The notes beneath the pieces were generated by a model that saw only the letters and a program-made list of their open reading frames with translations, was not told the DNA's origin and did no database searches. This document shows positions 7,066-47,038 of a stretch of 64,000 nucleotides of DNA, in pieces. The DNA is taken from positions 670,647 through 734,646 of the forward strand of contig NZ_CP028940.1 in the NCBI RefSeq assembly GCF_013307205.1. Reading direction: 5' to 3'. This DNA comes from Polynucleobacter arcticus (GTDB lineage: Bacteria > Pseudomonadota > Gammaproteobacteria > Burkholderiales > Burkholderiaceae). The position numbers and the translations under genes are program-made. Position 1 is the stretch's first letter, and every line of letters begins with the position of its first letter.

Positions 7066-8538
7066 ATGTCGAAACATCAGCAATACGACCGCTCCGATTT
7101 AGCCAGAATTGCCGCCATCGTCATGGAAGAAAAAGGGCTTGAGCCTAGTTTTTCTAAAGAGGTTCATGATCAACTGGATTTAATTGTTTCACCTGGACAG
7201 GATTTAGACCCCTCCATTCAAGATCTTTCAGACCTTTTATGGTGCTCTCTCGATAATGATGATTCAAAAGATTTAGATCAGTTAACAGTATGCAGCGATG
7301 CAGGAAATGGCAATCATAAAATTTACATCGCCATTGCCGATGTCGATGCGCTCATCAAAAAAGATACTCCGATTGATGATCATGCTAAACACAATACAGC
7401 CTCGGTTTACACGTCCGCACGGATTTTCCCGATGCTGCCAGAAAAACTCTCTACTAACCTGACCTCCCTCAATTTTAATGAAATCAGGTTAGCTTTAGTT
7501 ACCGAGATTGTTGTGGGTAGTAAAGGAGAAATTCTGGGCTCCACAATTTATAGAGCAAAAGTATGCAATAAAGCGAAGTTAGCTTATGACGCCGTATCAG
7601 CCTGGATCGAAGGCAAGGGTGAAATGCCAGCCGCCATGGCTGATGTACCTGGCATGGATCTGCAAATCAAAATTCAAGACGAAATTGCACAACGATTACG
7701 CCTGAAACGGCAACGAGCTGGATCATTACAACTAGAGATATTTCAACCGAAAGCCGTATTTGAGGGTGATCGGGTGATTGGCATTGCCGAACAAGAACAT
7801 AACCGAGGAAGGCAGCTCATTGAAGAGTTCATGATTGCAACCAATGGATCTACTGCCCGCTTTCTACTCAAAAAAGGTATTCCCTCTCTACGTAGGGTGG
7901 TTCGCAGTCCAGACCGATGGTTACGCATTGTTGAGCTAGCCAAGCAATATGGAGAGGTATTGCCCAATGAAGCAAGCTCCAGAGCCCTCTCAGAATTTTT
8001 AGCCAAACGCCACCAAGCAGACCCTCTGCGCTTTCCTGACCTATCCTTAGTCGTTGTGAAACTCATGGGGCCCGGAGAATACGTATTAGAGCAACCGGGA
8101 GCCACTCCAATTGGTCACTTTGGATTAGCGGTGCAAGATTATATGCACTCCACCGCGCCCAATCGACGGTACCCCGATTTAATTACTTTACGTATGCTCA
8201 AGAGTGCCATTAATAATGAGCCTAACGCATATGAAACTCAGGAACTCTATGCACTAGCGCTTCACTGCACTACACAGGAAGATGCCATCCGTAAAGTGGA
8301 GCGCAGAATGCGTAAATCAGAAGCAGCCCTATTCCTAGAACCTTTCATCGGTAAGGATTTCAATGGCGTTATTACTGGTGTGACTCCGAACTATGGATGG
8401 GTCAGGATTTTTAATCCACCCGCCGAAGGCATGCTGGTGAAGCTTCCTCGTGATGCATTTATCGGCAATAAGGTCCGGGTAAAACTAACGTCAACCAATG
8501 TTGAAATGGGGCACATCAACTTTATGCTAATTGCTTAA
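7066..8538 (+). CDS. RNB-family (RNase II/R-like) exoribonuclease
   Basis: This 490-residue protein is built around an RNB catalytic domain (about 50-370) that degrades RNA 3' to 5'. The metal-binding acidic cluster SLDNDDSKDLDQ is at 61-72. Other conserved blocks are IYIAIADVDALI, FPMLPEKLSTNLTSLN and the late STAPNRRYPDL. The C-terminal 60 residues resemble a small S1/OB-like RNA-binding end (GWVRIFNPPAEGMLVKL). N-terminal cold-shock domains, usual in RNase R, are absent. This fits the short RNase II-like subgroup found in betaproteobacteria. It is convergent with the downstream PAS-GGDEF gene, 17 bases apart. Confidence 0.9.
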   Translation: MSKHQQYDRSDLARIAAIVMEEKGLEPSFSKEVHDQLDLIVSPGQDLDPSIQDLSDLLWCSLDNDDSKDLDQLTVCSDAGNGNHKIYIAIADVDALIKKDTPIDDHAKHNTASVYTSARIFPMLPEKLSTNLTSLNFNEIRLALVTEIVVGSKGEILGSTIYRAKVCNKAKLAYDAVSAWIEGKGEMPAAMADVPGMDLQIKIQDEIAQRLRLKRQRAGSLQLEIFQPKAVFEGDRVIGIAEQEHNRGRQLIEEFMIATNGSTARFLLKKGIPSLRRVVRSPDRWLRIVELAKQYGEVLPNEASSRALSEFLAKRHQADPLRFPDLSLVVVKLMGPGEYVLEQPGATPIGHFGLAVQDYMHSTAPNRRYPDLITLRMLKSAINNEPNAYETQELYALALHCTTQEDAIRKVERRMRKSEAALFLEPFIGKDFNGVITGVTPNYGWVRIFNPPAEGMLVKLPRDAFIGNKVRVKLTSTNVEMGHINFMLIA

Positions 8539-31685: not shown

Positions 31686-32237
31686 ATGATTAATAGATAC
31701 TCAAGCATAGCTCGTGGAATACACTGGTTTACTGCATTGGCTATCCTCGCTCTGGCAATTTTGGGCTTTTGGATGACCCAAAGGGCGGGTGCCAATCTAT
31801 GGGATGACCTGACCAATACACTCTATGGTTGGCATAAATTGATTGGCTTTACCGTATTGCTCGTCACGATCTTGCGATTTTGCCTCAAGCTCAATTCAAA
31901 AACCCCTCCCTATCCCAATAGCATTTCTCCATACATAGTCAAAGTTGCATCAGTCGTGCATTACCTACTGTATGGCTTGTTATTGATTGTGCCTTTGCTG
32001 GGATGGGCGGGGGTGACGGCCTATCCAGCTTTAATTACCCTGGGAGGCTATTCACTGCCAGCGATGCCGGGTATACCTAAAAGCGAGTTACTTGCCAAAC
32101 AGATCTTCCAGATTCATGGAGTACTGGCAATGACGCTCATAGCAGTCGCACTATTGCATATTGCAGCTGCTATAAATCACCTCATCATTAAACGAGATGG
32201 CATTTTTCAAAGAATGTGGTTTGGAAGGCAAAAATAA
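31686..32237 (+). CDS. Cytochrome b561
   Basis: This 183-residue protein has four membrane helices and the family's haem histidines: ARGIHWFTALAIL (helix 1), LYGWHKLIGFTVL (helix 2), VVHYLLYGLLLIVP (helix 3) and QIHGVLAMTLIAVALLHIAAA (helix 4). It accepts electrons at the inner membrane, and one known relative (CybB) oxidises quinol with superoxide. GGAAGG precedes the ATG. It converges with the GTP cyclohydrolase II gene. Confidence 0.94.
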   Translation: MINRYSSIARGIHWFTALAILALAILGFWMTQRAGANLWDDLTNTLYGWHKLIGFTVLLVTILRFCLKLNSKTPPYPNSISPYIVKVASVVHYLLYGLLLIVPLLGWAGVTAYPALITLGGYSLPAMPGIPKSELLAKQIFQIHGVLAMTLIAVALLHIAAAINHLIIKRDGIFQRMWFGRQK

Positions 32238-32278: not shown

Positions 32279-33358
32279 TTAAATCTCAAATAAATGACCG
32301 CTTTTTTTCGCTTTCACACGAAGGTATTCGTCATTATGTTTGTTTGAGGGATAAATATGGGGAACCCTCTCAGAGACTTCGATCCCACATCGTTGTAGCG
32401 AATCTACTTTTGCGGGATTGTTAGTCATGAGCCGAACTTGATGGATGCCCAGTATCTGGAGCATTTGCGCAGCCGGAAGATAATTACGCTCATCCGAATC
32501 AAAGCCGAGCTGAAGATTGGCATCTACAGTATCAAAGCCTGAATCTTGCAGTTGATAAGCTCGGAGTTTGTTCACCAAACCAATTCCGCGCCCCTCTTGT
32601 GCAAGATATAAAAGAATGCCGCTACCTGACTTGGACATTTCTGAAATCGCACCCCGGAGTTGACTTCCGCAATCGCAGCGCAAGGATCCGACCAGATCAC
32701 CAGTAAAGCATTCAGAATGCAATCGAACCAATACCGGCTTGAGGGGATCAATCTTGCCGATGATGATGGCAAGATGCTCTATGCCACCATCTCGGGGACG
32801 AAAAGCAATCACCTGAGCATCTTCCGCATTCTCCAGCGGTACGCGAGCCTGACTCACTTGCGTCAGTGAATTGGCTGCATTCTTCATATAGTCATCAATT
32901 AAAGATGCTTTGACCGTTGGAATATCCGTCATTGGCACATCCTGAATCACGAGCGCCGCTGGCAGTAATCTAGATAGTTTGGCGAGCGTAATACAAGAGG
33001 CCTCTAATGCATTCGCATCTCTAATATTGAGATCATCTAGACTCGGAGGACTCATTAATACAGATAATGGATTGGCCAAGAATTCAACGAGCTCAAGGGA
33101 CAAATTATGTGCACTGGTTAAAACACTAATTGGTCGATCCGATTGATCGATGCCCAGGACATTCAGTCGGGTGCCAGTTAAGACTAAACCAATAGGAGAC
33201 GTATCAAACTGGGATAGGAATTTGAAATTATCGGCATCTACAGCATCTACCGCCAGCATCACAATACTGCTACCAGACTGCTCTACCCGAACCATGCCGC
33301 CCCTACGAAGCTCTGAAATAACGCGGTCAACTTCAATGAGGGGGTCAAGCATGTACAT
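32279..33358 (-). CDS. GTP cyclohydrolase II with degenerate DHBP-synthase-like N-terminus
   Basis: This 359-residue protein has a C-terminal half that is an intact GTP cyclohydrolase II. Zinc cysteines are in ECFTGDLVGSLRCDCG (C-x10-C-x-C) and the catalytic arginine is in QEGRGIGL. It releases formate and pyrophosphate from GTP to give the diaminopyrimidine used for flavins. The N-terminal 150 residues have the length and opening (VDRVISELRRGGMVRV) of a RibB domain but lack its acidic DDEDRENEGD motif, so they should not make dihydroxybutanone phosphate. It sits divergently, 53 bases from a RibD-like reductase and within a glycosyltransferase/PTPS cluster. It is therefore more likely a dedicated pathway copy than the housekeeping ribBA. 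Confidence 0.9.
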   Translation of the reverse strand: MYMLDPLIEVDRVISELRRGGMVRVEQSGSSIVMLAVDAVDADNFKFLSQFDTSPIGLVLTGTRLNVLGIDQSDRPISVLTSAHNLSLELVEFLANPLSVLMSPPSLDDLNIRDANALEASCITLAKLSRLLPAALVIQDVPMTDIPTVKASLIDDYMKNAANSLTQVSQARVPLENAEDAQVIAFRPRDGGIEHLAIIIGKIDPLKPVLVRLHSECFTGDLVGSLRCDCGSQLRGAISEMSKSGSGILLYLAQEGRGIGLVNKLRAYQLQDSGFDTVDANLQLGFDSDERNYLPAAQMLQILGIHQVRLMTNNPAKVDSLQRCGIEVSERVPHIYPSNKHNDEYLRVKAKKSGHLFEI

Positions 33359-33411
33359 GGTGGAAATGAATAATTAGTATCAACAAGCTAATTATTACAC
33401 CTTATGGTAAA

Positions 33412-34260
33412 TTGGTTTCGACCTTCTTCACCCCCTTAAAAAGCTTCTTTGTGATCCTTCCAGAGCCAAATCCTCCAGATGTAAAAATAGAGCTCGAGTC
33501 AGAGGGCGTGAACCAATGGCGCATATTTCAGGACCAATTTTTTTCCTCCACCCCCCTCTCAGATTCACCGCTGAAAACTGTTTTTGACCCCATCAGAAGA
33601 TCCACAGTGGACTCGATGATGGTGGTGGGCCAGCTTGGGCAAACGATGGATGGTCGAATTGCTACCGTTACCGGTCAATCTAGATACATCAATGGCCACT
33701 CTGGCCTTGTGCATCTGCATCAGCTAAGGGCGCTTGTAGATGCAGTGGTAGTTGGCGTTGGAACCGTCTTGGCGGATGACCCACAACTTAATGTCAGACT
33801 GATTGAGGGGAAACATCCAGCACGCGTAGTGATTGACCCAAAAGGCAGGCTAGATCCAAAGGCGCGCATCTGGAGTGATGATGGCGTTAAAAGACTATGG
33901 ATTGTTTCTAATGGACTGAATTTAGAGCCCCCAAAAGGGGTCAAAATCATCCAATTACCCATGGTTGATGGTCATATGGAGCCAGCGATGATCTTACAAA
34001 GTCTGAGCTCTGAGGGACTTAACCGGGTGTTGATTGAGGGTGGCGCAGAGACGATCTCTCGGTTCTTACAAGCAAATTGCTTAGATCGACTGCATATTAT
34101 TGTGGCCCCGATTGTGATGGGATCTGGAAGAGCTAGCTTTAATTTAAAAGCGATTGAACATATGGATCAAGCGTCACGATTAAAGGTAAAAACACATTTA
34201 CTAGATAGCGATGTGCTGTTTGATTGCGATCTCAGTTCCGCACGCATCCGCATAAATTAA
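33412..34260 (+). CDS. RibD C-terminal-type reductase
   Basis: This 282-residue protein contains a RibD_C/DHFR-like reductase domain from about residue 70 (VGQLGQTMDGRIATVTGQSRYINGHSGLVHLHQLRALVDAVVVG... RVLIEGGAETISRFL). NADPH-binding lines GVGTVLADDPQLNVR and LIEGGAETI are intact. The deaminase domain of RibD is absent. The N-terminal 65 residues are an extension of unknown role. The start is a TTG at 33412; no better in-frame start is near. Its stop overlaps the stop of the convergent glycosyltransferase by four bases. It probably reduces the ribosyl group or a similar moiety of the diaminopyrimidine made by the neighbouring GTP cyclohydrolase II. Confidence 0.88.
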   Translation: MVSTFFTPLKSFFVILPEPNPPDVKIELESEGVNQWRIFQDQFFSSTPLSDSPLKTVFDPIRRSTVDSMMVVGQLGQTMDGRIATVTGQSRYINGHSGLVHLHQLRALVDAVVVGVGTVLADDPQLNVRLIEGKHPARVVIDPKGRLDPKARIWSDDGVKRLWIVSNGLNLEPPKGVKIIQLPMVDGHMEPAMILQSLSSEGLNRVLIEGGAETISRFLQANCLDRLHIIVAPIVMGSGRASFNLKAIEHMDQASRLKVKTHLLDSDVLFDCDLSSARIRIN

Positions 34261-35351
34261 TTCATATAAGCTTGGACAATATCTGCAAATGTTTTGGCAG
34301 ATTCTGGCCAGGTAGGTAGTTTTTTAGCAGCATCACCTGCACCTGAAGATAAGCTCTTACGTCGACCCGGATCGTTGATGACTAATCTCAAGGCTTCCGT
34401 TAGGCTTGGTACGTCCCCTGGTGGGATCAAGATTCCGGCAGAGTCTGGAACAGTCTGGGAAATGGCACCTCCACTTGTACCAATGATGGGGAGTGCATAG
34501 GACAGCGCTTCTGCATATGCCATACCGTAGCCCTCAAAAAGGGAGGCAAGTACAAATCCATCAGCATTACGGTAAAGCGAATCAAGATACGCAGGGTCTA
34601 CAGCACCATGAATCTCAATTCGGTCTTGTAAATCAAAATGGGCAATGCTGTGCAGTAAGTCAGCATAAGCCTTCGCATCACGGCTTGTATCGCCAACAAT
34701 GGATAAGCTCCACGGCAAATCACGTAGGGGCGCAAGGGCTTCGATCAAGATGCCAAAGCCTTTGCGTGGAATGATGCTTCCAACAGAGAGCCACTGAAAC
34801 GGATCTTGAGATGTAAATTGTGTCCTCACTTGATACAAGGGAGAAGATACTCGATTGGTACCCGGAATGACGGTACTAATTTTTTTTCTTTCAACCCCAA
34901 ACGAATCAACCAGAGCTTGGGCTGTCATGGGGCTATTTGCAATGACCTGTTTTACATGTGAGAGCGCTAATGTCTCACTCTCCTGAAGCTGCACTTGCTG
35001 GCCTTTGGTTAAACCAGACTCGTAAGCTAATGGGTGATGTATCAAAGCAATAATAGGATGATTGACTGCTGCTTGAGCAATGCTCTGTGGCATGACACCA
35101 AGAGCTAGGCCATCTATAACAATGGGCTTGCCGGCTTGTACTTGACATAACAGTTGCTCGGCTTGATTGATCGTTTCTTGATCAGGAAAAGGGAAGCCGG
35201 AACCCAGACTCAATAACTCAACTTCCCAACCCAGCGCCGTCAGCTCACTAACGATATGACTATCGTAGATATAGCCACCGGTCAGCGTTTGTAGATCTCC
35301 GGGATAGGCGAAAACAAATGCATTCGAACCTGCACCAGGCGCTCTACTCAA
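34257..35351 (-). CDS. Group 1 (GT4-type) glycosyltransferase
   Basis: This 364-residue GT-B enzyme has the C-terminal retaining motif EGYGMAYAEALSYALPIIGTSGGAISQTV and the preceding FQWLSVGSIIPRKGFGILIEAL block. It transfers a sugar from a nucleotide donor. Its start (TTG at 35351) overlaps the stop of the PTPS-like gene as TTGA, so translation is coupled. With GTP cyclohydrolase II, the reductase and the PTPS-fold protein nearby, the acceptor may be a pterin- or pyrimidine-like compound. This is inference from context. The donor sugar is not predictable. Confidence 0.9.
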   Translation of the reverse strand: MSRAPGAGSNAFVFAYPGDLQTLTGGYIYDSHIVSELTALGWEVELLSLGSGFPFPDQETINQAEQLLCQVQAGKPIVIDGLALGVMPQSIAQAAVNHPIIALIHHPLAYESGLTKGQQVQLQESETLALSHVKQVIANSPMTAQALVDSFGVERKKISTVIPGTNRVSSPLYQVRTQFTSQDPFQWLSVGSIIPRKGFGILIEALAPLRDLPWSLSIVGDTSRDAKAYADLLHSIAHFDLQDRIEIHGAVDPAYLDSLYRNADGFVLASLFEGYGMAYAEALSYALPIIGTSGGAISQTVPDSAGILIPPGDVPSLTEALRLVINDPGRRKSLSSGAGDAAKKLPTWPESAKTFADIVQAYMN

Positions 35352-35749
35352 TGCAACTCACCCTCATACCAGGCTCTTGCAATATGGGATTCTGAAATGC
35401 TTACCCGAATGGCATGCAATTCTTCAATCGGACGACCCAAACTATTGGCTTTTGCAGCCGCTGCCAATTGATCGAAAATATATTTAGTTAAAAATTCTGT
35501 AGTGGTGTTCACACCCTTAAATTGCGGGAGTTCATCAAGATTAGCGTAATTTAAGGGCTTCAAAGTCGCCTTGAGGATATCTAAAGCGCATCCGATATCA
35601 ATCACGATCCCGTTCTCGTCAAGCTCACGGGAAATAAAAGCGGCATCAACAATGAAAGTTGCGCCATGTAAGGCTTGTGCCGGTCCAAAAACTGCCCCTT
35701 TGAAAGAATGGGCAATCATGATGTGATCGCGAACTTCAACAGTAAACAT
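35348..35749 (-). CDS. 6-pyruvoyl-tetrahydropterin-synthase-fold protein with altered metal site
   Basis: This 133-residue protein of the 6-PTPS/QueD family starts at an ATG behind TAAGGAAA (6 bases). The longer frame to 35839 overlaps the dehydrogenase gene. The first zinc histidine (IAHSFKG) is kept. The normal CxxxHGH reads AQALHGA, so both the catalytic cysteine and the last zinc histidine are missing. The C-terminal catalytic Glu region reads SESHIARAWYE. The chemistry must therefore differ from QueD or PTPS. It lies between the dehydrogenase and glycosyltransferase genes, overlapping the latter by four bases. The fold is certain, but the reaction is unknown. Confidence 0.88.
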   Translation of the reverse strand: MFTVEVRDHIMIAHSFKGAVFGPAQALHGATFIVDAAFISRELDENGIVIDIGCALDILKATLKPLNYANLDELPQFKGVNTTTEFLTKYIFDQLAAAAKANSLGRPIEELHAIRVSISESHIARAWYEGELH

Positions 35750-35759
35750 GTATTTTTCC

Positions 35760-36749
35760 TTATGGATATTGAATAAGACAACAAAGTTGAGAACTTTGAG
35801 CGCTAAAGATCTGCGGCAGTTGAGACGGCAAGGATTCAAAGTGAATCGGCTCAGTCAGAAGAGCATCGAGGCGGGAGTCGCTCAACATACCCAATGCAGC
35901 AGCTAGCCTGCGACGATAACTCCAGCGAGGTCTACGGGATTGAGAGATATGCCCAACCTGACTCGACTGCAGTCGTAACTGACGACTATGAAAAGCACCT
36001 CCTAGTGCCACATCAATTTGATTGGAACCATACCAACTCAGCTCCAAAATAGTGGCCTCTTCGCCTGCTGATTCAATTGCAGTTGACAGGCCGCTAGCGC
36101 TCGCACTGCAATGGAACACAAGATCACAATCTGTGGGTGCTAATTCGGGGGAGCTGAACTGCACACCCAGTTTTTTTGCCAAAGCTGCGCGCTCGGGATT
36201 AATATCCACTAGCGTTACTTCGGCACCTGGTAAATGCCCACATAAATAGGCGATTAAGGAGCCGAGCACACCTGCCCCGATAATTACGATACGGTCACCA
36301 GGCCCAGGTGACGCATCCCAAACAGCATTTAAGGCGGTCTCCATATTGGCTGCTAAAACCGCACGTTGCGCTGGGATTTCTTGAGGAATTACTAGGACAT
36401 TAGCAATCTCGGTTTGAAAAACCGATTGGTGAGGCATCAAGCTAAACACCAGCTGTCCGATCAGCTCTGTGGGACCAAGCTCAACCCTGCCCACATTCGA
36501 ATATCCATACTTCACTGGAAAAGGAAGCTTGCCGCCCATAAATGGCGCTGCCATGCGAGTGTATTCACTCTCGGGAATGAGGCCCTTAAAGACAAGGGAT
36601 TCTGTACCGCGACTCAGCGCACTAAATACGGAACGCACTTGAACACTATTTTCGGGCAAGGGGCCGAGGATTTCTGAACGAATCTCAGTGCGCTCAGGAG
36701 CCACGTACCACAGGGATTGACTGACGACTGAGGCCACAGGATGAACCAC
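35760..36749 (-). CDS. Zinc-type alcohol-dehydrogenase-like oxidoreductase lacking zinc ligands
   Basis: This 329-residue medium-chain dehydrogenase homologue has a Rossmann NAD(P) motif (VIIGAGVLGSLIAYL) and an acidic VDINPER after the next strand. The catalytic-zinc GHE and its cysteine are absent: the equivalent region reads SALSRGTESLVFKGLIP. It belongs to a subgroup found with PTPS-like and glycosyltransferase genes. It is the first gene of the leftward run ADH, PTPS-like, GT (gaps of 10 and -4 bases). It diverges from the OpgH-like gene over 89 bases that contain a perfect 9-bp inverted repeat. Confidence 0.87.
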   Translation of the reverse strand: MVHPVASVVSQSLWYVAPERTEIRSEILGPLPENSVQVRSVFSALSRGTESLVFKGLIPESEYTRMAAPFMGGKLPFPVKYGYSNVGRVELGPTELIGQLVFSLMPHQSVFQTEIANVLVIPQEIPAQRAVLAANMETALNAVWDASPGPGDRIVIIGAGVLGSLIAYLCGHLPGAEVTLVDINPERAALAKKLGVQFSSPELAPTDCDLVFHCSASASGLSTAIESAGEEATILELSWYGSNQIDVALGGAFHSRQLRLQSSQVGHISQSRRPRWSYRRRLAAALGMLSDSRLDALLTEPIHFESLPSQLPQIFSAQSSQLCCLIQYP

Positions 36750-36789
36750 GTAAAAATCCTTAGTAGGAAAAGTGAAAATGTGCTTGCTA

Positions 36790-36824
36790 ACCTATACTGC
36801 TGGTGCGCTTTGCATAGTATAGGT
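36790..36824. promoter_or_regulatory. Inverted repeat in divergent promoter region
   Basis: ACCTATACT (36790-36798) and AGTATAGGT (36816-36824) are exact reverse complements separated by 17 bases. They lie between the leftward dehydrogenase operon and the rightward OpgH-like gene. This is a good candidate for a shared operator; the arms could also overlap -10/-35 elements. Confidence 0.5.
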
Positions 36825-36838
36825 GAGCTTAAGATAAA

Positions 36839-38608
36839 TTGAATACCTTAGTAAATAAACACCCCATAAGAGCAGTATCGATTCGTCGAGTCATCTTCTT
36901 TTTACTTTTTCTATTGACGTCTGCATTAATGCTTTGGTTGTTAGATCAGACGCTAAATCATTATTTCCCCAACTTCATTCGCTGGACATTAATAGCCCTT
37001 TTTTCACTCACCCTGCCTTGGATGGTAATCGGTTTCTGGAATGCGATCATTGGCTTTTTAATTTGTCTGTTAATCAAAAAACCACTCTCTATTATTTTGC
37101 CAGCGAGTATGCAGAATTGTGAAGAGGTTTCTTTCAATAGCTCTACAGCCCTTCTACTTTGCATTCGAAATGAAGACTCGACAAGAGTGATTCGCCATCT
37201 TGAAATCATGATGGACAGCTTAATCCATGCAGGCTTTGAAAAGCACTTTCATATTTACATCCTCAGCGATAGCACTACTGAAACAATTAGACAATCCGAA
37301 AGCAAGCGGTTCGAGCAATTGAATCAGGATTATGGGCAACGAATCAATATCGTCTATCGCTGCCGCGAAACTAATGAAGGGTACAAAGCGGGCAATATTG
37401 CTAGCTTCTGTCAGCAGTACGGAAAACTACATGATTTTGCTATCACGCTAGATGCTGATAGCTTTATGACGGCAGCGGCAATAGCAAGACTGGTAAGAAT
37501 GATGCAATCCGATCCGCAGTTAGGCATTCTGCAGGGTCTTGTTATTGGTCTGCCATCGAGTAGCGCCTTCACCCGTTTTTTTCAATATGGCATGCGCCTA
37601 GGAATGCGCTCTTACACCATGGGCTCAGCATGGTGGCAGTCAGATTTTGGTCCTTACTGGGGTCATAACGCCATTATTCGCCTTGCACCTTTTATGCAGT
37701 TTTGTCAGCTGCCAGAACTGAAAACTGCAACGGGCCAGACAAAACAGATACTCAGCCATGATTTGATCGAGGCTGTATTGATGCGAAGTGCTGGTTTTGA
37801 TGTACGAGTCTATCCATACGAAGATCAAAGCTGGGAAGAAAATCCACCAACCCTCACGGAATACATTCGCCGTGATTTACGATGGTGCGAGGGCAATCTT
37901 CAATACATCAATCTCATCGCCCTACCTCACCTCAAGTTCATCAGTCGGATACAGCTTCTTTTAGCCATCTTTATGTTTCTTGGCTCACCGGCATGGATTG
38001 CCATGATGGTTATCTGCACCATATCGATTGCTATTTTTCCATCTACCCAAGAAACGGCCAATGGGTTGTATTTCTATGCGTTTATTGGGCTTACTCTTGT
38101 CATGTGGTATTTGCCAAAAATTGCCGGAGCGCTGAATGTTTTACTCAGCACCAAAGAATCCCAACGTTTTGGTGGTCGATGGCGGTTTAGCATTAGCCTT
38201 GTACTTGAAACTACTTTTTCTCTATTCATGACTCCGATTACTTGGTTCAATCACACAATTTTTATGGTGAGTCTTGCTGTAGGGCATAAAGGGGGCTGGG
38301 CGACGCAGGCACGAGAGGACCATACTGTTAGTTTTTCCAACGCTATTCAGCAATTTTGGCCGCATACAATACTTGGAATCGCTTTAGCGTTGACACTGTA
38401 TCTCAGCCAAGAAAGTGCATTTATCTTTGGTATATTGTTTTTCGGCGGTCTATTGCTATCGATACCGCTGGCAGTGATCACGTCACAGACTTGGCTAGGA
38501 AATCTCATGATGAGATATCAAATCCTATCCTCCCCAGAGGAGATTACTATCCCGAATGAATTAATCCCGCTCCGACTAAAAGCCTTACAGCATCGCCAGG
38601 ATTACTGA
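36839..38608 (+). CDS. OpgH/MdoH-type membrane glucosyltransferase
   Basis: This 589-residue GT2 enzyme has about seven membrane helices. Conserved catalytic blocks are DADSFM (nucleotide-sugar Asp), WGHNAIIRL, SHDLIEAVLMRSAGFDV and the RRDLRWCEGN version of the processive QxxRW motif, exactly as in MdoH/OpgH. It polymerises UDP-glucose into a beta-glucan at the inner membrane. It is shorter than enteric OpgH (about 847 residues), lacking the long N-terminal extension. No opgG partner is nearby. An NdvA-like exporter follows 8 bases later. The start is TTG at 36839, with AGGTGAG upstream; it is uncertain by a few codons. Confidence 0.9.
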   Translation: MNTLVNKHPIRAVSIRRVIFFLLFLLTSALMLWLLDQTLNHYFPNFIRWTLIALFSLTLPWMVIGFWNAIIGFLICLLIKKPLSIILPASMQNCEEVSFNSSTALLLCIRNEDSTRVIRHLEIMMDSLIHAGFEKHFHIYILSDSTTETIRQSESKRFEQLNQDYGQRINIVYRCRETNEGYKAGNIASFCQQYGKLHDFAITLDADSFMTAAAIARLVRMMQSDPQLGILQGLVIGLPSSSAFTRFFQYGMRLGMRSYTMGSAWWQSDFGPYWGHNAIIRLAPFMQFCQLPELKTATGQTKQILSHDLIEAVLMRSAGFDVRVYPYEDQSWEENPPTLTEYIRRDLRWCEGNLQYINLIALPHLKFISRIQLLLAIFMFLGSPAWIAMMVICTISIAIFPSTQETANGLYFYAFIGLTLVMWYLPKIAGALNVLLSTKESQRFGGRWRFSISLVLETTFSLFMTPITWFNHTIFMVSLAVGHKGGWATQAREDHTVSFSNAIQQFWPHTILGIALALTLYLSQESAFIFGILFFGGLLLSIPLAVITSQTWLGNLMMRYQILSSPEEITIPNELIPLRLKALQHRQDY

Positions 38609-38616
38609 GCGCATTC

Positions 38617-40374
38617 ATGAGCCTGATCAGAATATACACACGTGCATTAAAAATGCTCGACTCAGACAGAAATCTTGCCTGGATATTAGCGTTTGCAAAT
38701 CTAGCACTCGCCGTGACACTGTTTGCTGAACCGATACTATTTGGCAAGGTGATCAATACGCTTGCAAGCACTGAAGCTTCTAAGGCTTCCTCACTATGGA
38801 ATGATGTTGCACCTTTATTAATTGTTTGGGTGCTTTTTGGTTTTTTTACGATTGGCACTTCAACACTAGTTGCTCTATTTTCAGATCGCCTCGCGCATCG
38901 CCAACGACATAAAGTATTTGGTGAATACTTTGAGCATGTATTACACATGCCCTTAAAACAGCAGTCTCAAACCCACTCAGGTCGGCTGATGAAAATCATG
39001 CTGGCAGGTACAGATACCCTCTGGTGGCTTTGGCTCAGCTTTTTTCGTGAACACCTATCCGCTTTTATTTCTTTAATCATTTTGATTCCATTGGCGCTGT
39101 ATATGAATTGGCAGCTTGCTTTGGTACTCATCAGCCTGTGTTTATTCTTTGGATTACTCACCCACTTCATCTTACGAAAAACGCAAGATCTCCAGCACGC
39201 CATTGAAAGTCATCATTCGGATTTAGCTGAATTAGCCTCGGATACTCTGAGCAATATTGCACTAGTGCAGAGTTTTTCTAGAATTCAGGTTGAAGTGAAA
39301 GCGCTTCATGGCATCAGCCAGAAAGTACTGAGAGCGCAATTGCCTGTTCTTTCCTGGTGGGCAATAGTCACCGTACTGACAAAATCTGCAACCACGCTCA
39401 GCATTCTCTGTATTGTTGTTTTGGGATCATGGCTTTATGCGCAATCCCTCATCACCATAGGTGAAATTGTTACCTTCATTGCTTTTGCAGGGATTTTTAT
39501 TGGTCGCTTAGAGCAAATCGTCACATTTGCTAATAAGCTGGCTACAGACGCGCCCCGTTTACAAGAGTTTTTTGGAATTCTAGATACATCGCCAGATATT
39601 CAGAATATTCCGAATGCAATAGACCCAGGACGATGTGTTGGTTTGATTCAATTTGATCAGGTTTGCTTTACCTATAACAATCGGCATAAGGCCATTGATA
39701 GATTGAGTTTTACTGCAAATCCAGGTGAGACCATTGCCTTAGTTGGCGCCTCTGGTGCAGGAAAATCTACTGCGCTGAGCCTACTGTATCGCGCCTTTGA
39801 TACCCAGTCTGGACAGATCACTATAGATGGTATTGATATCAAAAATTTCGATCTATCAGCGCTGCGTAGGAATATCGGCGTGGTCTTTCAGGAACCCCTG
39901 CTATTTAATCGCTCCATCGTTGAAAATCTTCTCGTTGGCGCACCAGATGCGAGCGAAATGGAAATACGAATAGCCTGTCTACGAGCGCAAGCCCTTGATT
40001 TCATTGAAAGACAACCAGAGGGTTTTGATACCATCATCGGTGAAAGAGGACGAATTTTATCTGGGGGCGAGAGGCAACGACTGTCAATTGCACGTGCCTT
40101 ACTGAAAGATCCCCCTATTCTCGTTCTAGATGAAGCTACTAGCGCATTGGATGGGGCTACTGAAGAGAACTTGATTAAAGCCATGAGCGAGGTGATGCGC
40201 ACTCGAACCACCTTAGTCATTGCACACAGGCTCAGCACGATTAAAAATGCAGATATGATTTTAGTAATGGAAGCCGGCAGAATTATCGAAACCGGAACTT
40301 ATCAATCTCTGTGTGAAAAAAGTAGCCAATTTAATAAAATGGTCAACATTCAATTGGGTTTAAAAAATCCATGA
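38617..40374 (+). CDS. NdvA/ChvA-type glucan ABC exporter (fused permease-ATPase)
   Basis: This 585-residue half transporter has a six-helix membrane domain (1-300) and an ATPase domain (about 345-580). Walker A is GASGAGKST, signature LSGGERQRLSIARALL and Walker B ILVLDEATSALDG. The N-terminus (RIYTRALKMLDSDRNLAWILAFANLALA) matches the cyclic beta-1,2-glucan exporters NdvA and ChvA rather than lipid flippases. It probably exports the product of the upstream glucosyltransferase. The pairing of OpgH-type synthase with NdvA-type exporter is unusual, since rhizobial NdvA goes with NdvB. Confidence 0.9.
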   Translation: MSLIRIYTRALKMLDSDRNLAWILAFANLALAVTLFAEPILFGKVINTLASTEASKASSLWNDVAPLLIVWVLFGFFTIGTSTLVALFSDRLAHRQRHKVFGEYFEHVLHMPLKQQSQTHSGRLMKIMLAGTDTLWWLWLSFFREHLSAFISLIILIPLALYMNWQLALVLISLCLFFGLLTHFILRKTQDLQHAIESHHSDLAELASDTLSNIALVQSFSRIQVEVKALHGISQKVLRAQLPVLSWWAIVTVLTKSATTLSILCIVVLGSWLYAQSLITIGEIVTFIAFAGIFIGRLEQIVTFANKLATDAPRLQEFFGILDTSPDIQNIPNAIDPGRCVGLIQFDQVCFTYNNRHKAIDRLSFTANPGETIALVGASGAGKSTALSLLYRAFDTQSGQITIDGIDIKNFDLSALRRNIGVVFQEPLLFNRSIVENLLVGAPDASEMEIRIACLRAQALDFIERQPEGFDTIIGERGRILSGGERQRLSIARALLKDPPILVLDEATSALDGATEENLIKAMSEVMRTRTTLVIAHRLSTIKNADMILVMEAGRIIETGTYQSLCEKSSQFNKMVNIQLGLKNP

Positions 40375-40405
40375 TGAATCCACACATCCAATTTAAATAC
40401 ATCTG

Positions 40406-41278
40406 ATGAATACATTCTCAACTGATTGGCTAAGCTTACGTGAGGGCGTAGATCACCGTTCACGTAATCCTGCTTTGCAACAGCAAGTACTGAGCTATTT
40501 AGAGCAAGTTGGAAGCGTAAAAAACGATCCTATTCATATTATCGACCTAGGATCAGGCACAGGCTCTAATCTACGCGCCCTAGCGCCATTGATCCAGCAT
40601 AGTCAGAACTGGACTCTAGTTGATTACGACCCACTACTGTTGATGGCGGCCCGAGAAAAACTGTGCGCCTGGGCAGATAGCGTCTCTGATGGGGCGCCTC
40701 ATGGTCATTTGGATAGTAATGCTACTAGGCCAGTAACTTTAGTGAAAAATAATCATGAGATTAATGTCATTTTTTTACAGAAGGATCTTGCTGGTGATCT
40801 TCAGTCTGTACTATCTAAACCAGCAGATTTGATTACTGCAGCAGCATTTTTTGATTTAGTCGCAGTTGGCTGGTTAGAGCAATTTTGCAGAGCATTAAAA
40901 ACGCCTCTTTATACGGTCTTAACGTATAACGGCCAAGAAACATGGCTACCGGTAGATCCCTGGGATAGCAAGATTCTGGAAGCATTCCACCATCATCAAG
41001 GATCCGATAAGGGTTTTGGATCTGCTGCAGGACCCCTAGCACTCACGACTTTGGAGCAACTACTGAGAAAAGAAGGATTTAAGGTAGTAACCGGATCAAG
41101 TCCCTGGGTACTAGGTCCAAATGACTCCTTATTGATTCAGGAATTAGCCGCCGGCACCGCCAAAGCTGCCGCAGAAACCACCCTGGTTAGCAATGCCATT
41201 GCACAACAGTGGGGGGAAAGTCGCGCTCAATCTCCAAAATGTGAGATTGGTCATGATGATTTGTTTGCAAGGTATTAA
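40406..41278 (+). CDS. Class I SAM-dependent methyltransferase of the pterin/glucan cluster
   Basis: This 290-residue protein has motif I IIDLGSGTGSNLRAL, an acidic end of strand 2 in LVDYDPLLL and FLQKDL before strand 4. A glycine-rich insert and a TLVSNAIAQQWGESRAQ C-terminus are unlike common families. It begins 31 bases after the exporter gene, in line with the OpgH-NdvA pair. It may methylate the metabolite made by the neighbouring cluster. The acceptor is unknown. The following gene is convergent, 35 bases away. Confidence 0.88.
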   Translation: MNTFSTDWLSLREGVDHRSRNPALQQQVLSYLEQVGSVKNDPIHIIDLGSGTGSNLRALAPLIQHSQNWTLVDYDPLLLMAAREKLCAWADSVSDGAPHGHLDSNATRPVTLVKNNHEINVIFLQKDLAGDLQSVLSKPADLITAAAFFDLVAVGWLEQFCRALKTPLYTVLTYNGQETWLPVDPWDSKILEAFHHHQGSDKGFGSAAGPLALTTLEQLLRKEGFKVVTGSSPWVLGPNDSLLIQELAAGTAKAAAETTLVSNAIAQQWGESRAQSPKCEIGHDDLFARY

Positions 41279-43813: not shown

Positions 43814-44980
43814 ATGCTTATGCCCGAATTTTCGACCGAGGACTACCTTCTGTATGCACCATACCCGTCGTCATCGACCATGGGGCACTGGCTTGAAGAA
43901 ACGAATCAGATTACCCGTCACATTCTGAGCAATATTTCAGAAGCAGAACACTTAGTCCCTCAGCTAAACATTCTCAACCCCCCTCTTTGGGAATTAGGTC
44001 ATTTAACCTGGTTTCATGAGTTTTGGGTGCATCGGGATGGGCAAGAAAACAAACCATCATTGCTGGAAGATGCAGATTACTTGTTTAACTCATCAGAGAT
44101 AGCCCATGAAGATCGCTGGTCCACGTCAACACCATGCCTAAGTGATCTTTTGGAATATAACCACGGCGTCATCGAGAAAACCAAGCAGCTACTTCATAAT
44201 CCAGTGGATACAAAAACTGCCTACTTTATTCAGTTGGCAATTTTTCATCAGGATATGCATAACGAAGCATTTGCTTATATGTGGCAGACATTGGGCTACC
44301 CTGGGCCATTTCCCCCATTTTCTCCCTTTGTAACTCCGAGCATTCTGGAGGATCAGGTGCAGACTTGGATTGAGTTTCCGAAGTCGACTATCAAAGCAGG
44401 GTCGGATCGCGGCTCAGGCTTTATTTTTGATAATGAAAAATGGGGTCACTCTCAGGATCTTCCTGCGTTTGCCATTTCAAGCAATCCTATTACTAATGCC
44501 GATTACTTGGCATTCCTAGAATCTGAAACCAATCTTTCAGAAACAAAGCCAGTCTCATCACCGTCGCATTGGAAAAAAGATGGGGAATCTTGGTTTGAGC
44601 GATTCTTTCAAGAATGGCTACCTTTAAATCCCGCATCAGCAGTGCGCCATATTAGCTACCTAGATGCCCAGCGCTTTTGCGAACTTCAAAAATTGCGTCT
44701 GCCCAATGAACATGAGCTCAGTGTATTAATGTCTCAAAAACAAGATATTTGGCAGCCCTCCTATTTATGGGAATGGACCAGCAGCACCTTTCTGCCTTTT
44801 CCTGGATTTAGTGCCGATCCGTATAAGGACTACTCACTCCCTTGGTTTGATGGCACTTATCAAGTACTCAAGGGTGGCAGTCTGTACACACCCGATCGCT
44901 TAAAAAGGGTAGCAATGCGGAATTTCTATCAGCGTGATCGCAGTGATCATTTTTGCGGCTTTCGTACGTGCTTAGGCTAA
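43814..44980 (+). CDS. senA: Selenoneine synthase SenA (EgtB-like sulfoxide-synthase fold)
   Basis: This 388-residue protein has an N-terminal DinB-like helical domain and a C-terminal formylglycine-enzyme-like (FGE-sulfatase) domain, as in EgtB. Iron-binding histidines are visible in WELGHLTWFHEFWVH and in the H-x3-H-x-E of FHQDMHNEAFAY. The C-terminal domain has LWEWTSSTF and LKGGSLYT. The EgtB call is from the fold. The specific SenA call rests on the adjacent selD and the nearby TIGR04348 glycosyltransferase, the known selenoneine gene set. SenA joins selenosugar to trimethylhistidine. No EgtD methyltransferase lies nearby, so hercynine must come from elsewhere. Confidence 0.88.
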   Translation: MLMPEFSTEDYLLYAPYPSSSTMGHWLEETNQITRHILSNISEAEHLVPQLNILNPPLWELGHLTWFHEFWVHRDGQENKPSLLEDADYLFNSSEIAHEDRWSTSTPCLSDLLEYNHGVIEKTKQLLHNPVDTKTAYFIQLAIFHQDMHNEAFAYMWQTLGYPGPFPPFSPFVTPSILEDQVQTWIEFPKSTIKAGSDRGSGFIFDNEKWGHSQDLPAFAISSNPITNADYLAFLESETNLSETKPVSSPSHWKKDGESWFERFFQEWLPLNPASAVRHISYLDAQRFCELQKLRLPNEHELSVLMSQKQDIWQPSYLWEWTSSTFLPFPGFSADPYKDYSLPWFDGTYQVLKGGSLYTPDRLKRVAMRNFYQRDRSDHFCGFRTCLG

Positions 44981-45040
44981 ATTGAGTAAGCTGACGTTGT
45001 TGTGGCATTTGCCATCCTTTAAATACATGATAATTTTTTT

Positions 45041-46087
45041 ATGACTACTCCTTATAACGGCCGCCTTACCTCTTTATCTCATGGTGGAGGCTGTGGCTGC
45101 AAAATTGCACCCGGTGTCTTAAGCGATATCCTAAAAGCCTCACCAATACGTAATTTACCTGCCGCACTATTGGCTGGCTCTGACAATAATGAAGATGCCG
45201 CTGTCTACCAAATCAACGATCATCAGGCGATTGTTGCGACAACGGATTTCTTCATGCCCATTGTGGATGATCCATTTGAGTTTGGTCGTATTGCCGCAAC
45301 CAATGCAATTTCCGATATTTATGCAATGGGTGCACAGCCCCTTTTTGCACTCGCCCTCCTAGGCATGCCTATTTCAGTTTTACCCTTAGATGTGATTCAA
45401 CAAATTACTGCTGGCGGAGAGTCCGTCTGCAATGATGCAGGCATCATGATTGCTGGTGGCCACTCGATTGATACTGTGGAGCCCATTTATGGCTTGGTAG
45501 CTATTGGTGTAGTGGATCCAAAAAAACTCAAACGCAATAATGGCGCTCAAGCGGGCGACAGCATCATTCTGAGCAAACCATTGGGTGTGGGCATACTTTC
45601 TGCAGCGTTAAAGAAAGAGGTGCTCTCCCCTGCAGGCTATCAAGAGATGATTGCTCTGACCACTAAATTAAATAAGCCTGGCGTTGCTCTCGCTCAGCTT
45701 GAGGGTGTGCATGCCTTGACCGATGTCACAGGCTTTGGCTTGGCAGGGCATCTTCTAGAAATGGCCAGAGGATCCGAATTAATGGCGCAGGTTCAGTGGG
45801 ATGCTATTCCCGTAGTTCAGGAGGCAATTGAGCATGTCAAAGCCGATATCTTTACAGGTGCTTCCACGCGCAATTGGGTGGGTTATGGCAGTGAAGTGCA
45901 GCTTGCAAACAATTTAGCACTGTGGCAACAACACTTATTGACCGATCCTCAGACTAGTGGCGGCCTTCTCATCGCTTGCGCTCCAGAACAAGAAGCCGAA
46001 GTCCTCTCTATCTTAAATATGGGAGGCTTTGCTAGCGCCCAAAAAATTGGTCACTTTACTGCAGGTACTGGATTATCCGTTGTGTAA
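45041..46087 (+). CDS. selD: Selenide, water dikinase (SelD/SenC)
   Basis: This 348-residue enzyme makes selenophosphate from selenide and ATP. The active-site motif is GGGCGCK with Cys18 and Lys21, so the usual Cys form is present and no selenocysteine codon is needed. Further blocks NEDAAVYQI, TTDFFMPIVDDPFEFGRIAATNA and TDVTGFGLAGHL are typical. It lies 60 bases after senA. In selenoneine clusters this role is called SenC, supplying selenophosphate to SenB. It could equally serve selenoprotein or selenouridine synthesis. Confidence 0.95.
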   Translation: MTTPYNGRLTSLSHGGGCGCKIAPGVLSDILKASPIRNLPAALLAGSDNNEDAAVYQINDHQAIVATTDFFMPIVDDPFEFGRIAATNAISDIYAMGAQPLFALALLGMPISVLPLDVIQQITAGGESVCNDAGIMIAGGHSIDTVEPIYGLVAIGVVDPKKLKRNNGAQAGDSIILSKPLGVGILSAALKKEVLSPAGYQEMIALTTKLNKPGVALAQLEGVHALTDVTGFGLAGHLLEMARGSELMAQVQWDAIPVVQEAIEHVKADIFTGASTRNWVGYGSEVQLANNLALWQQHLLTDPQTSGGLLIACAPEQEAEVLSILNMGGFASAQKIGHFTAGTGLSVV

Positions 46088-46105: not shown

Positions 46106-47038
46106 TTATACCAAGCCACTTACCAGCTCTTGGATAGACTGCTTCTCACGCGCTGGATGAATCCATTCTTTTCGTAAATCAATCTGCTGTTGTAGTGAAG
46201 CGTAGAAGGTAGGCATTGTTTCTGCTCGATACAAAAGATCAGCGAGTGCTTTTGCATCTCCCACTGGAAAGTAGCCAGGATAATCATCTCCCAGTAAACC
46301 GCGATTGCCTGGGATATCAGAGGCGATCACCGGAATACCGAGTGCAATCGCCTCGGAAACCACATGGGCACCGCCTTCCATGCGACTAGAAATGACCATT
46401 AGGCGACTTTGGGAAAGTATCTGTAACGCATTTAGATGGCTTACCTCTCCAATCCATTGGTAGCGATCGAGCGTTGTATTACATTGTTTAGCAAACTCTG
46501 CCATTGGGGCACTCATCGCCTGACCCAAATGCCGTACTTGAATTTTGGAATCCGAGGGTAATAGTGGCAAGCTTCGCACTATGCAAAAGGGATCCTTTTC
46601 ATCTCTTAAGTGACCAATGATGCTGACTAGAAAATCTTCTTTCGGGGTCGGGCTAGGTGCATTAATCTCAACTGATTGATAGATGACTTGGGCTTTATCT
46701 AGCAGACTGGGTGGTATCAAATCCAATGCCGATGACTGTAAGACGATTAACCGATCCGCCAGCTGCATTGATTGAATCACCTCACGATGATTTTCCATAT
46801 CCCGATACAAATCAGTACCGGTCAAAATCAAGACAACCGGTCTATTAGGATATGTTTCTTTAAAGCGCACAATCGATTGATGACTACGATAGGCATGAAG
46901 CGCTATTAATACAGCAGTATCGTCCCCAGACCAAGACTCAGTCACCTCAACCAAATACCCAAGCTTCTCCAAAAACCCTTGCCAGCGTAAAGCGGTCATC
47001 CGGTTTCCGTGAAGACTGCCTAGCGGAGCTGGAGTCAC
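46106..47038 (-). CDS. senB: Selenosugar synthase SenB (TIGR04348-type glycosyltransferase)
   Basis: This 310-residue GT-B glycosyltransferase homologue begins near TPAPLGSLHGNRMTALRW, the hallmark of the TIGR04348 family. Its C-terminal motif is MEGGAHVVSEAIALGIPVIASDIPG. SenB makes a selenosugar from selenophosphate and a UDP sugar. The only standard start in frame is the GTG at 47038. That cuts the first beta strand, and upstream codons read IKSSIEIV before a stop, so a rare start (ATC 27 nt upstream, behind AAAGGG) is possible. It is convergent to selD with 18 bases between, an unusual strand arrangement for this cluster. Confidence 0.9.
   Translation of the reverse strand: MTPAPLGSLHGNRMTALRWQGFLEKLGYLVEVTESWSGDDTAVLIALHAYRSHQSIVRFKETYPNRPVVLILTGTDLYRDMENHREVIQSMQLADRLIVLQSSALDLIPPSLLDKAQVIYQSVEINAPSPTPKEDFLVSIIGHLRDEKDPFCIVRSLPLLPSDSKIQVRHLGQAMSAPMAEFAKQCNTTLDRYQWIGEVSHLNALQILSQSRLMVISSRMEGGAHVVSEAIALGIPVIASDIPGNRGLLGDDYPGYFPVGDAKALADLLYRAETMPTFYASLQQQIDLRKEWIHPAREKQSIQELVSGLV

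Follow-up and report, generated by a model that had tools for sequence, protein, structure and literature searches.

Introduction

GTP cyclohydrolase II (GCH II) and GTP cyclohydrolase IIa (GCH IIa) are unrelated enzymes that both open the ring of GTP, giving (formyl)diaminopyrimidine nucleotides. In the archaeal riboflavin route the ribose is reduced before deamination, which gives 2,5-diamino-6-ribitylamino-pyrimidinone phosphate, whereas the bacterial RibD deaminates first, and toxoflavin is a specialised metabolite that is also made with GCH II and RibD-type steps. The Streptomyces coelicolor protein SCO6650, which has the fold of 6-pyruvoyltetrahydropterin synthase (PTPS), is said to have neither PTPS activity nor zinc, and SCO6655 is reportedly a GCH II that stops at the formamidopyrimidine because a tyrosine is replaced by methionine. 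SCO6655 is named in a metabolic-model paper (PMC2853524), and arfA and arfC of Haloferax are listed elsewhere (PMC8305020). In the part of the 2017 AGeNNT network paper that deals with the PTPS-IV subfamily of COG0720, FGPAQ is given as its signature, 561 sequences are placed in its node and PF00925 and PF01872 are named as neighbours (PMC5445326); a 2016 review also names PTPS-IV (PMC5041015). In the present work we describe an eight-gene locus that encodes a PTPS-IV protein in Polynucleobacter arcticus, within a stretch of 64,000 nucleotides, hereafter the window (NZ_CP028940.1, positions 670,647 to 734,646; G000:C1:670647-734646), of a complete genome of 2,090,447 bases. We consider it rather probable that this locus encodes a beta-proteobacterial version of a widespread pathway which diverts the first riboflavin intermediates into a secreted or membrane-associated metabolite.

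Results and discussion

The original prediction for this DNA had listed eight genes, and in profile searches all eight open reading frames (ORFs) were found in place, each matching its expected family, in the order GCH II (-), stand-alone RibD_C reductase (+), family 4 glycosyltransferase, GT4 (-), PTPS-like protein (-), zinc-less dehydrogenase (-), OpgH-like glucosyltransferase (+), NdvA-like exporter (+) and methyltransferase (+). A scan of 84,980 species genomes returned 521 relatives of the PTPS-like protein, the best 80 of which were taken as similar loci, and in all 78 with enough flank the dehydrogenase gene lies directly upstream of the PTPS gene and the GT4 gene directly downstream. 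Among these, the 45 loci with full flanks all hold OpgH, dehydrogenase, GT4 and methyltransferase genes, accompanied by RibD_C in 39, GCH II in 36 and an NdvA-like protein in 32, the last count including weak ABC matches. An even sample of 398 Pseudomonadota genomes, drawn regardless of similarity, gave matches at E<=0.001 in 101 genomes, 27 of which, the window's own included, reached at least 116 bits at 47-100% identity. The other 74 (at most 46 bits, 25-36% identity) were omitted from the context count, which therefore covers the 26 genomes besides the window's, in stretches of 12-19 kb, with genes within 9.5 kb of the PTPS gene. These 26 genomes hold the dehydrogenase in 26 cases, always adjoining the PTPS gene, GT4 in 25, the methyltransferase in 24, RibD_C in 22, GCH II in 11 and a creatininase-family gene in six. 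Because the genes co-occur both in the set of 80 loci and in a sample drawn regardless of similarity, their grouping is not due to chance. The joint presence of PTPS-like protein and zinc-less dehydrogenase, with GCH II in part of the genomes, is what the original prediction had proposed to look for; the set recurs widely across genomes and not just in close relatives, which supports its claim of a biosynthetic cluster whose parts recur together without an assigned product.

The distribution of the cluster is patchy but coherent. A gene closely related to the PTPS gene is present in about 7% of the even sample (27 of 398, the window's genome included), in nearly every case surrounded by the core genes, and the gene is also found in Streptomyces, other actinobacteria and haloarchaea. 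Within the genus it was detected in five of 61 sampled genomes, and in the sample of the family in one of 150, which is the window's own. A search of 5.8 billion proteins gave at least 7,999 relatives at E<=1e-10 among the 8,000 candidates scored, a figure that is not a count of the family. On plasmids, 21 records with a PTPS match were obtained, of which 19 were taken in, the two omitted being further records of included species; the dehydrogenase stands beside the PTPS gene in 15 of the 18 bacterial loci, and one further record is haloarchaeal.

The gene at 32279-33358 (- strand) encodes a GCH II (PF00925, 202.5 bits) with an N-terminal extension of about 160 residues. In an alignment whose RibA reference is approximate, this protein retains three zinc cysteines and the equivalents of E. 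coli RibA Tyr105 and Arg128, residues which we take to have the same roles as in RibA, and it is predicted to convert GTP, by ring opening, into the 2,5-diamino-6-ribosylamino-pyrimidinone nucleotide. Its neighbour at 33412-34260 (+ strand; PF01872, 133.7 bits) is a stand-alone RibD_C reductase for which the profile search found PF01872 and no deaminase domain, so that it is not a bifunctional RibD. The best solved relative of this reductase is 6p8c, named as a 2,5-diamino-type reductase, followed by 2azn, of the uracil type, and the window protein is predicted to reduce the ribosyl group to ribityl.

An archaeal form of the cluster was examined in haloarchaea, for which ten records were listed and nine loci used (L112 and L117-L124), the tenth being a second record of the same strain. 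Matches to the dehydrogenase, the PTPS-like protein and the methyltransferase are present in all nine, with GT4 directly downstream in five, a CDP-alcohol phosphatidyltransferase in six and a creatininase-family gene in two. The haloarchaeal dehydrogenase is clearly related to that of the window (about 31% identity, E about 1e-43), and the haloarchaeal PTPS lacks the catalytic cysteine and keeps the sequence HSH. Neither a RibD_C nor a GCH II match was found in any of the nine loci. In three of them, all from Haloarcula, the gene directly before the dehydrogenase encodes a GCH IIa, one scoring 276.5 bits against PF05165 and 320 bits against NF002587 (cut-off 306) and the other two matching that one at 84-85% identity. 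For a reduced compound that keeps its amino group, a bacterium would need its own deaminase-free RibD_C and an archaeon would not, and the pattern of genes fits this expectation. At the cluster on pNG700 of Haloarcula marismortui (L122) the annotation lists no PTPS gene, and the PTPS match falls in two separate places (7951-8333).

The PTPS-like protein itself (35348-35749, - strand; PF01242) has its most likely start codon in the ATG at 35749, since its relatives begin with MF..VRDHIMIAHS. Its best solved relative is SCO6650 (PDB 3d7j, E=1.4e-40), matched over residues 1-130. The protein carries the FGPAQ signature, and its gene has GCH II and RibD_C as neighbours, both of which are features of PTPS-IV; the sequence GPAQ is present in 124 of 133 homologues, the exceptions being eight haloarchaeal proteins and one from Streptomyces (FGSAQ). 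For canonical PTPS and QueD enzymes we take a cysteine and an Asp-His pair to be catalytic and three histidines to bind zinc. The motif of the canonical enzymes is given in a passage of the 2016 review as CxxxHGH or CxxxxxHGH (PMC5041015), and the window protein reads GPAQALHGA and LNYANL, without the catalytic cysteine, the third zinc histidine or the Asp-His pair, which places it outside canonical PTPS and QueD. Likewise, all 16 aligned bacterial PTPS-IV proteins have lost the cysteine and show HGA at the zinc-site HGH, and HGA was found by pattern in 120 of 125 bacterial sequences, the pattern having caught a different histidine in the other five. H14, H28, E85 and E120 are invariant in the alignment. 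The natural reading of these sequences is that the reaction has been changed or lost and that binding of a 2-amino-4-oxo ring has been retained.

The nature of the precursor can be approached from gene content. With the two FolE (GTP cyclohydrolase I, GCH I) proteins of this genome as queries, no FolE match was found in 133 loci (107 and 26), FolE2 and archaeal MptA not having been searched. Since the archaeal version uses the unrelated GCH IIa and FolE has no match in these loci, we read the pathway as one fed by a GTP-derived (di)aminopyrimidine nucleotide and not by dihydroneopterin; the diaminopyrimidine precursor proposed in the original prediction thus gains independent backing and is well supported by the archaeal exchange. 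A glycosylated pterin of the cyanobacterial kind, made from dihydroneopterin triphosphate, the product of GCH I, with the PTPS-like protein acting as an altered PTPS, would agree with the PTPS fold and its conserved pterin-anchoring glutamate, with tailoring by GT4 and the methyltransferase and with the presence of two FolE genes elsewhere in the genome (G000:C1:280910 and 425076). Nevertheless, many loci hold GCH II or the archaeal GCH IIa in place of FolE, and the catalytic cysteine and the Asp-His pair of the PTPS have been lost, and accordingly we regard this alternative as quite improbable.

A role of PTPS-IV in the synthesis of coenzyme F420 was also considered, ribityl-aminopyrimidines being established precursors of F420, and one Streptomyces locus (L084) carries an annotated F420-dependent oxidoreductase about 6 kb from the PTPS gene. 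Such a role is stated, as unpublished, in a part of the 2016 review (PMC5041015), and that statement itself speaks in its favour. On the other hand, CofH (TIGR03551) was not found in the complete genome of P. arcticus, a profile above its cut-off in three of 14 controls (CofC, CofD and CofE were not searched), and the annotated neighbours at the plasmid loci include no F420 biosynthesis gene. The F420 role was rejected for this genome for lack of CofH, and as an explanation of PTPS-IV it is barely credible.

Membrane modules

The gene at 36839-38608 (+ strand) encodes an OpgH/MdoH-type membrane glucosyltransferase (NF003958, 512 bits, cut-off 419), the single match of its kind in the genome, which scores above the cut-offs of NF003958 and NF003962 and below those of seven other MdoH models. 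It is followed at 38617-40374 (+ strand) by an NdvA/ChvA-like ABC exporter (NF010178, 811 bits, cut-off 733; TIGR01192, 563.6, slightly under the cut-off of 585.4), whose best solved relative is NdvA (PDB 7znu). The original prediction had read these two genes as glucan export, a claim that found no support: OpgH is single, OpgG (PF04349) was not found in the genome although the same profile matches in the E. coli control, and a CDP-alcohol phosphatidyltransferase stands near the position of OpgH in many relatives. The classical reading of an OpgGH system for periplasmic glucan is therefore rejected for this genome, which has no OpgG.

The OpgH gene stands beside that of the dehydrogenase in the window and in all 71 similar loci with enough flank, where it lies at most 4 kb upstream of the PTPS gene, on the opposite strand. 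The CDP-alcohol phosphatidyltransferase is found near the core in Streptomyces, Microbacterium, several Rhizobiaceae, Thiodictyon and 12 of the 26 sampled genomes, often accompanied by an LPG_synthase_TM flippase-like protein. Among 107 loci, 78 have an OpgH match and 16 the CDP-alcohol enzyme, with none having both; in the 26 sampled genomes OpgH stands beside the dehydrogenase in eight, the CDP-alcohol enzyme is present in 12 and neither in six. A strict mutual exclusion was considered and abandoned, as it holds beside the dehydrogenase and is broken by four of the 12 sampled CDP-alcohol loci, in which a weak OpgH-like match (25-34% identity) lies further off. Given this alternation, a plain glucan role is improbable, and OpgH and the CDP-alcohol enzyme may be two alternative means by which the product is completed at the membrane.

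Tailoring enzymes and proposed pathway

The GT4 glycosyltransferase (34257-35351, - strand; PF00534/PF13692) keeps R196, K197, E273 and E281 in at least 95% of 116 sequences and so has both the E-x7-E motif and the R/K pair, which are presumably catalytic. The protein encoded at 35760-36749 (- strand) belongs by profile matches to the medium-chain dehydrogenase/reductase (MDR) superfamily and has its fold. At the positions that we take to be those of the MDR zinc ligands the consensus of its family reads SRGTE and GYxxVG, which sets it apart from the zinc-dependent alcohol dehydrogenases; its nearest folds include L-idonate, xylitol, sorbitol and L-arabinitol dehydrogenases. The last gene (40406-41278, + strand) gives weak Pfam matches, and its confident structure model (mean pLDDT 93.9) has the fold of a class I S-adenosylmethionine-dependent methyltransferase.

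The gene set, its conservation, the intact and lost catalytic residues and the archaeal exchange of enzymes were observed directly. From these we infer what each enzyme acts on, in which order the steps run and what the product is. GCH II would convert GTP to 2,5-diamino-6-ribosylamino-4(3H)-pyrimidinone 5'-phosphate, and the deaminase-free RibD_C would then reduce the ribose to ribitol with the 2-amino group kept, an outcome that the order of the housekeeping RibD, which deaminates first, would preclude. The zinc-less dehydrogenase may oxidize a hydroxyl of the polyol side chain, and PTPS-IV, holding the 2-amino-4-oxo-pyrimidine through its conserved glutamate, could direct a ring closure or a rearrangement that yields a pteridine-like core. 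GT4 would attach a sugar and the methyltransferase would methylate the compound; a glycosylated product is plausible. In the window OpgH may finish the product at the membrane, a task that could fall in other lineages to the CDP-alcohol phosphatidyltransferase, often with the flippase-like protein, and the NdvA-like pump would export the finished compound. In short, the gene set of many bacteria and haloarchaea probably turns the opened ring of GTP into a sugar-decorated small molecule.

Several observations weigh against such a pathway. No GCH II was detected at 15 of the 26 sampled loci or at nine of the 45 with full flanks, and no RibD_C at four and six of them, respectively, so that both could be mere supply genes or be located elsewhere. 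A nearby GTP cyclohydrolase is missing from six of the nine haloarchaeal loci, the three Haloarcula loci with GCH IIa probably represent one event, and the haloarchaeal PTPS, which retains the third histidine, shares only 23-26% identity with that of the window. The creatininases of the clusters score 21-37 bits against an ArfB cut-off of 180. Among the 18 bacterial plasmid PTPS-IV genes, three from Streptomyces stand outside any such cluster. The resemblance of the dehydrogenase to polyol dehydrogenases is weak evidence, since the whole MDR superfamily matches, and the fold search with the methyltransferase gave generic class I neighbours only, with no hint of a substrate. Finally, the long form of GCH II is present without the PTPS gene in three congeners (L101 9832-10911, L102 and L103).

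Two of these points bear on side issues. The three Streptomyces plasmid loci (L083, L106 and L107) have cupin, MBL-fold and other genes near PTPS-IV and form a second setting for it. The creatininase was considered as a formamidopyrimidine deformylase acting only where GCH II has lost Tyr105, a reading that was dropped, as the tyrosine is kept in creatininase-bearing loci too and these proteins fall far under the ArfB cut-off; their highest score is against MftE, whose cut-off they likewise miss. In the alignment, which omits the GCH II of loci retrieved later, the proteobacterial cluster enzymes keep the tyrosine wherever the site is present, and methionine was seen only in Streptomyces L084.

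The gaps in GCH II and the three congeners lead to the alternative that GCH II and RibD_C are an ordinary riboflavin supply beside a glycan or glycolipid locus, with the PTPS-like protein and the dehydrogenase unrelated to GTP. In fact, of the two PF00925 proteins in the genome only that of the window has an intact active site, the other, a ribBX-like RibB next to ribH and nusB (L082 1483-2622), having a degenerate GCH II domain, and a dependence of riboflavin synthesis on the window gene was suspected at first. This suspicion was weakened when no GCH II match at E<=1e-20 was found in 52 of the 61 genomes of the genus sample, so that the window gene is not a genus-wide riboflavin gene; another type of GCH II (NF005536) scored above its cut-off in one of the 61, and the long type is present in eight, including all five with the PTPS gene. 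Moreover, the deaminase-free RibD_C, which bacterial riboflavin synthesis does not need, is present at most of the sampled loci, and in three archaeal loci an unrelated GTP cyclohydrolase takes the place of GCH II. We therefore judge an ordinary riboflavin supply unlikely and favor the diversion of riboflavin intermediates into a dedicated metabolite.

An extended form of the proposed pathway, which we put forward as a rather doubtful possibility, is that bacteria and haloarchaea share a class of membrane glycoconjugates. Their head group would be a methylated, glycosylated pteridine or pyrimidine derived from GTP via 2,5-diamino-6-ribitylamino-pyrimidinone, with the ring closed by PTPS-IV and the zinc-less dehydrogenase in a bypass of GTP cyclohydrolase I, and it would be carried on a lipid (through the CDP-alcohol phosphatidyltransferase) or on glucose units (through OpgH).

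Layout and genomic context

Of the two divergent arms described in the original prediction, the divergence between the dehydrogenase and OpgH stands, but RibD_C interrupts the left arm on the + strand, facing GCH II head to head and GT4 tail to tail, and the layout is not a simple two-arm divergon. The end of the dehydrogenase gene is separated by 10 bases from the ATG of the PTPS gene, which overlaps GT4 by 4 bases, and this short spacing suggests that the three genes form one operon. Between the dehydrogenase and OpgH lie 89 bases (36750-36838) that make up a divergent promoter region, in which the dyad ACCTATACT-N17-AGTATAGGT is found. Within the L001-L044 group of beta-proteobacterial clusters, 37 of 40 loci carry the dyad TATA(C/A)T...AGTATA (TATACT-N17/18-AGTATA) there, a count that omits the alpha-like L042, with 39 matches in total in the 688,386 bases of L001-L044 (44 loci); two of 36 other loci carry it as well.

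The closest locus, L001, is also from Polynucleobacter, with a PTPS identity of 93%. The GC content is 0.454 in the cluster and 0.440 in the remaining window; a recent foreign origin was considered, and base composition gives no signal of it. A cytochrome b561 gene (31686-32237) adjoins the cluster and may belong to it; such a gene is also found near L086, L109 and L113-L116, and near the cluster in 14 of the 45 loci with full flanks. Further along the window, an ORF resembling the selenoneine synthase SenA (43814-46087; NF041186, 391.8 bits, slightly below the cut-off of 420), followed by SelD, marks a probable selenoneine locus, with a candidate SenB-like gene at 46106-47038.

Comparison with known systems

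The toxoflavin pathway shares GCH II and RibD-type steps with the cluster, and to our knowledge includes no PTPS-IV, zinc-less dehydrogenase or GT4. Compared with SCO6655 as reported, the GCH II of the window keeps the tyrosine, whereas the Streptomyces relative L084 has methionine. The archaeal ArfA/ArfB/ArfC route resembles the cluster in its supply steps, which are mirrored by GCH IIa, by a protein of the creatininase family and by a reduction that precedes deamination, and differs in that the cluster creatininases score far under the ArfB cut-off. The OpgGH and NdvA systems have homologues in the window above some curated cut-offs; in contrast, this genome lacks OpgG, and a CDP-alcohol phosphatidyltransferase replaces OpgH in relatives.

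In the open-licence literature no description of the whole cluster and no product assigned to it were found. The closest account is the AGeNNT section on PTPS-IV, which agrees with the window in the FGPAQ signature and in the adjacent PF00925 and PF01872 genes (PMC5445326). That section, however, calls PF00925 GTP cyclohydrolase I, proposes no pathway or product, and names no dehydrogenase, GT4, methyltransferase, OpgH, CDP-alcohol module or archaeal form. If the proposed pathway is correct, a branch of riboflavin metabolism feeds a widespread metabolite, PTPS-IV gains a pathway, and the label "6-carboxytetrahydropterin synthase" is wrong for many of the genes that now bear it. We regard the pathway as real, widespread and partly noticed before, the neighborhood of PTPS-IV, GCH II and RibD_C having been reported in 2017.

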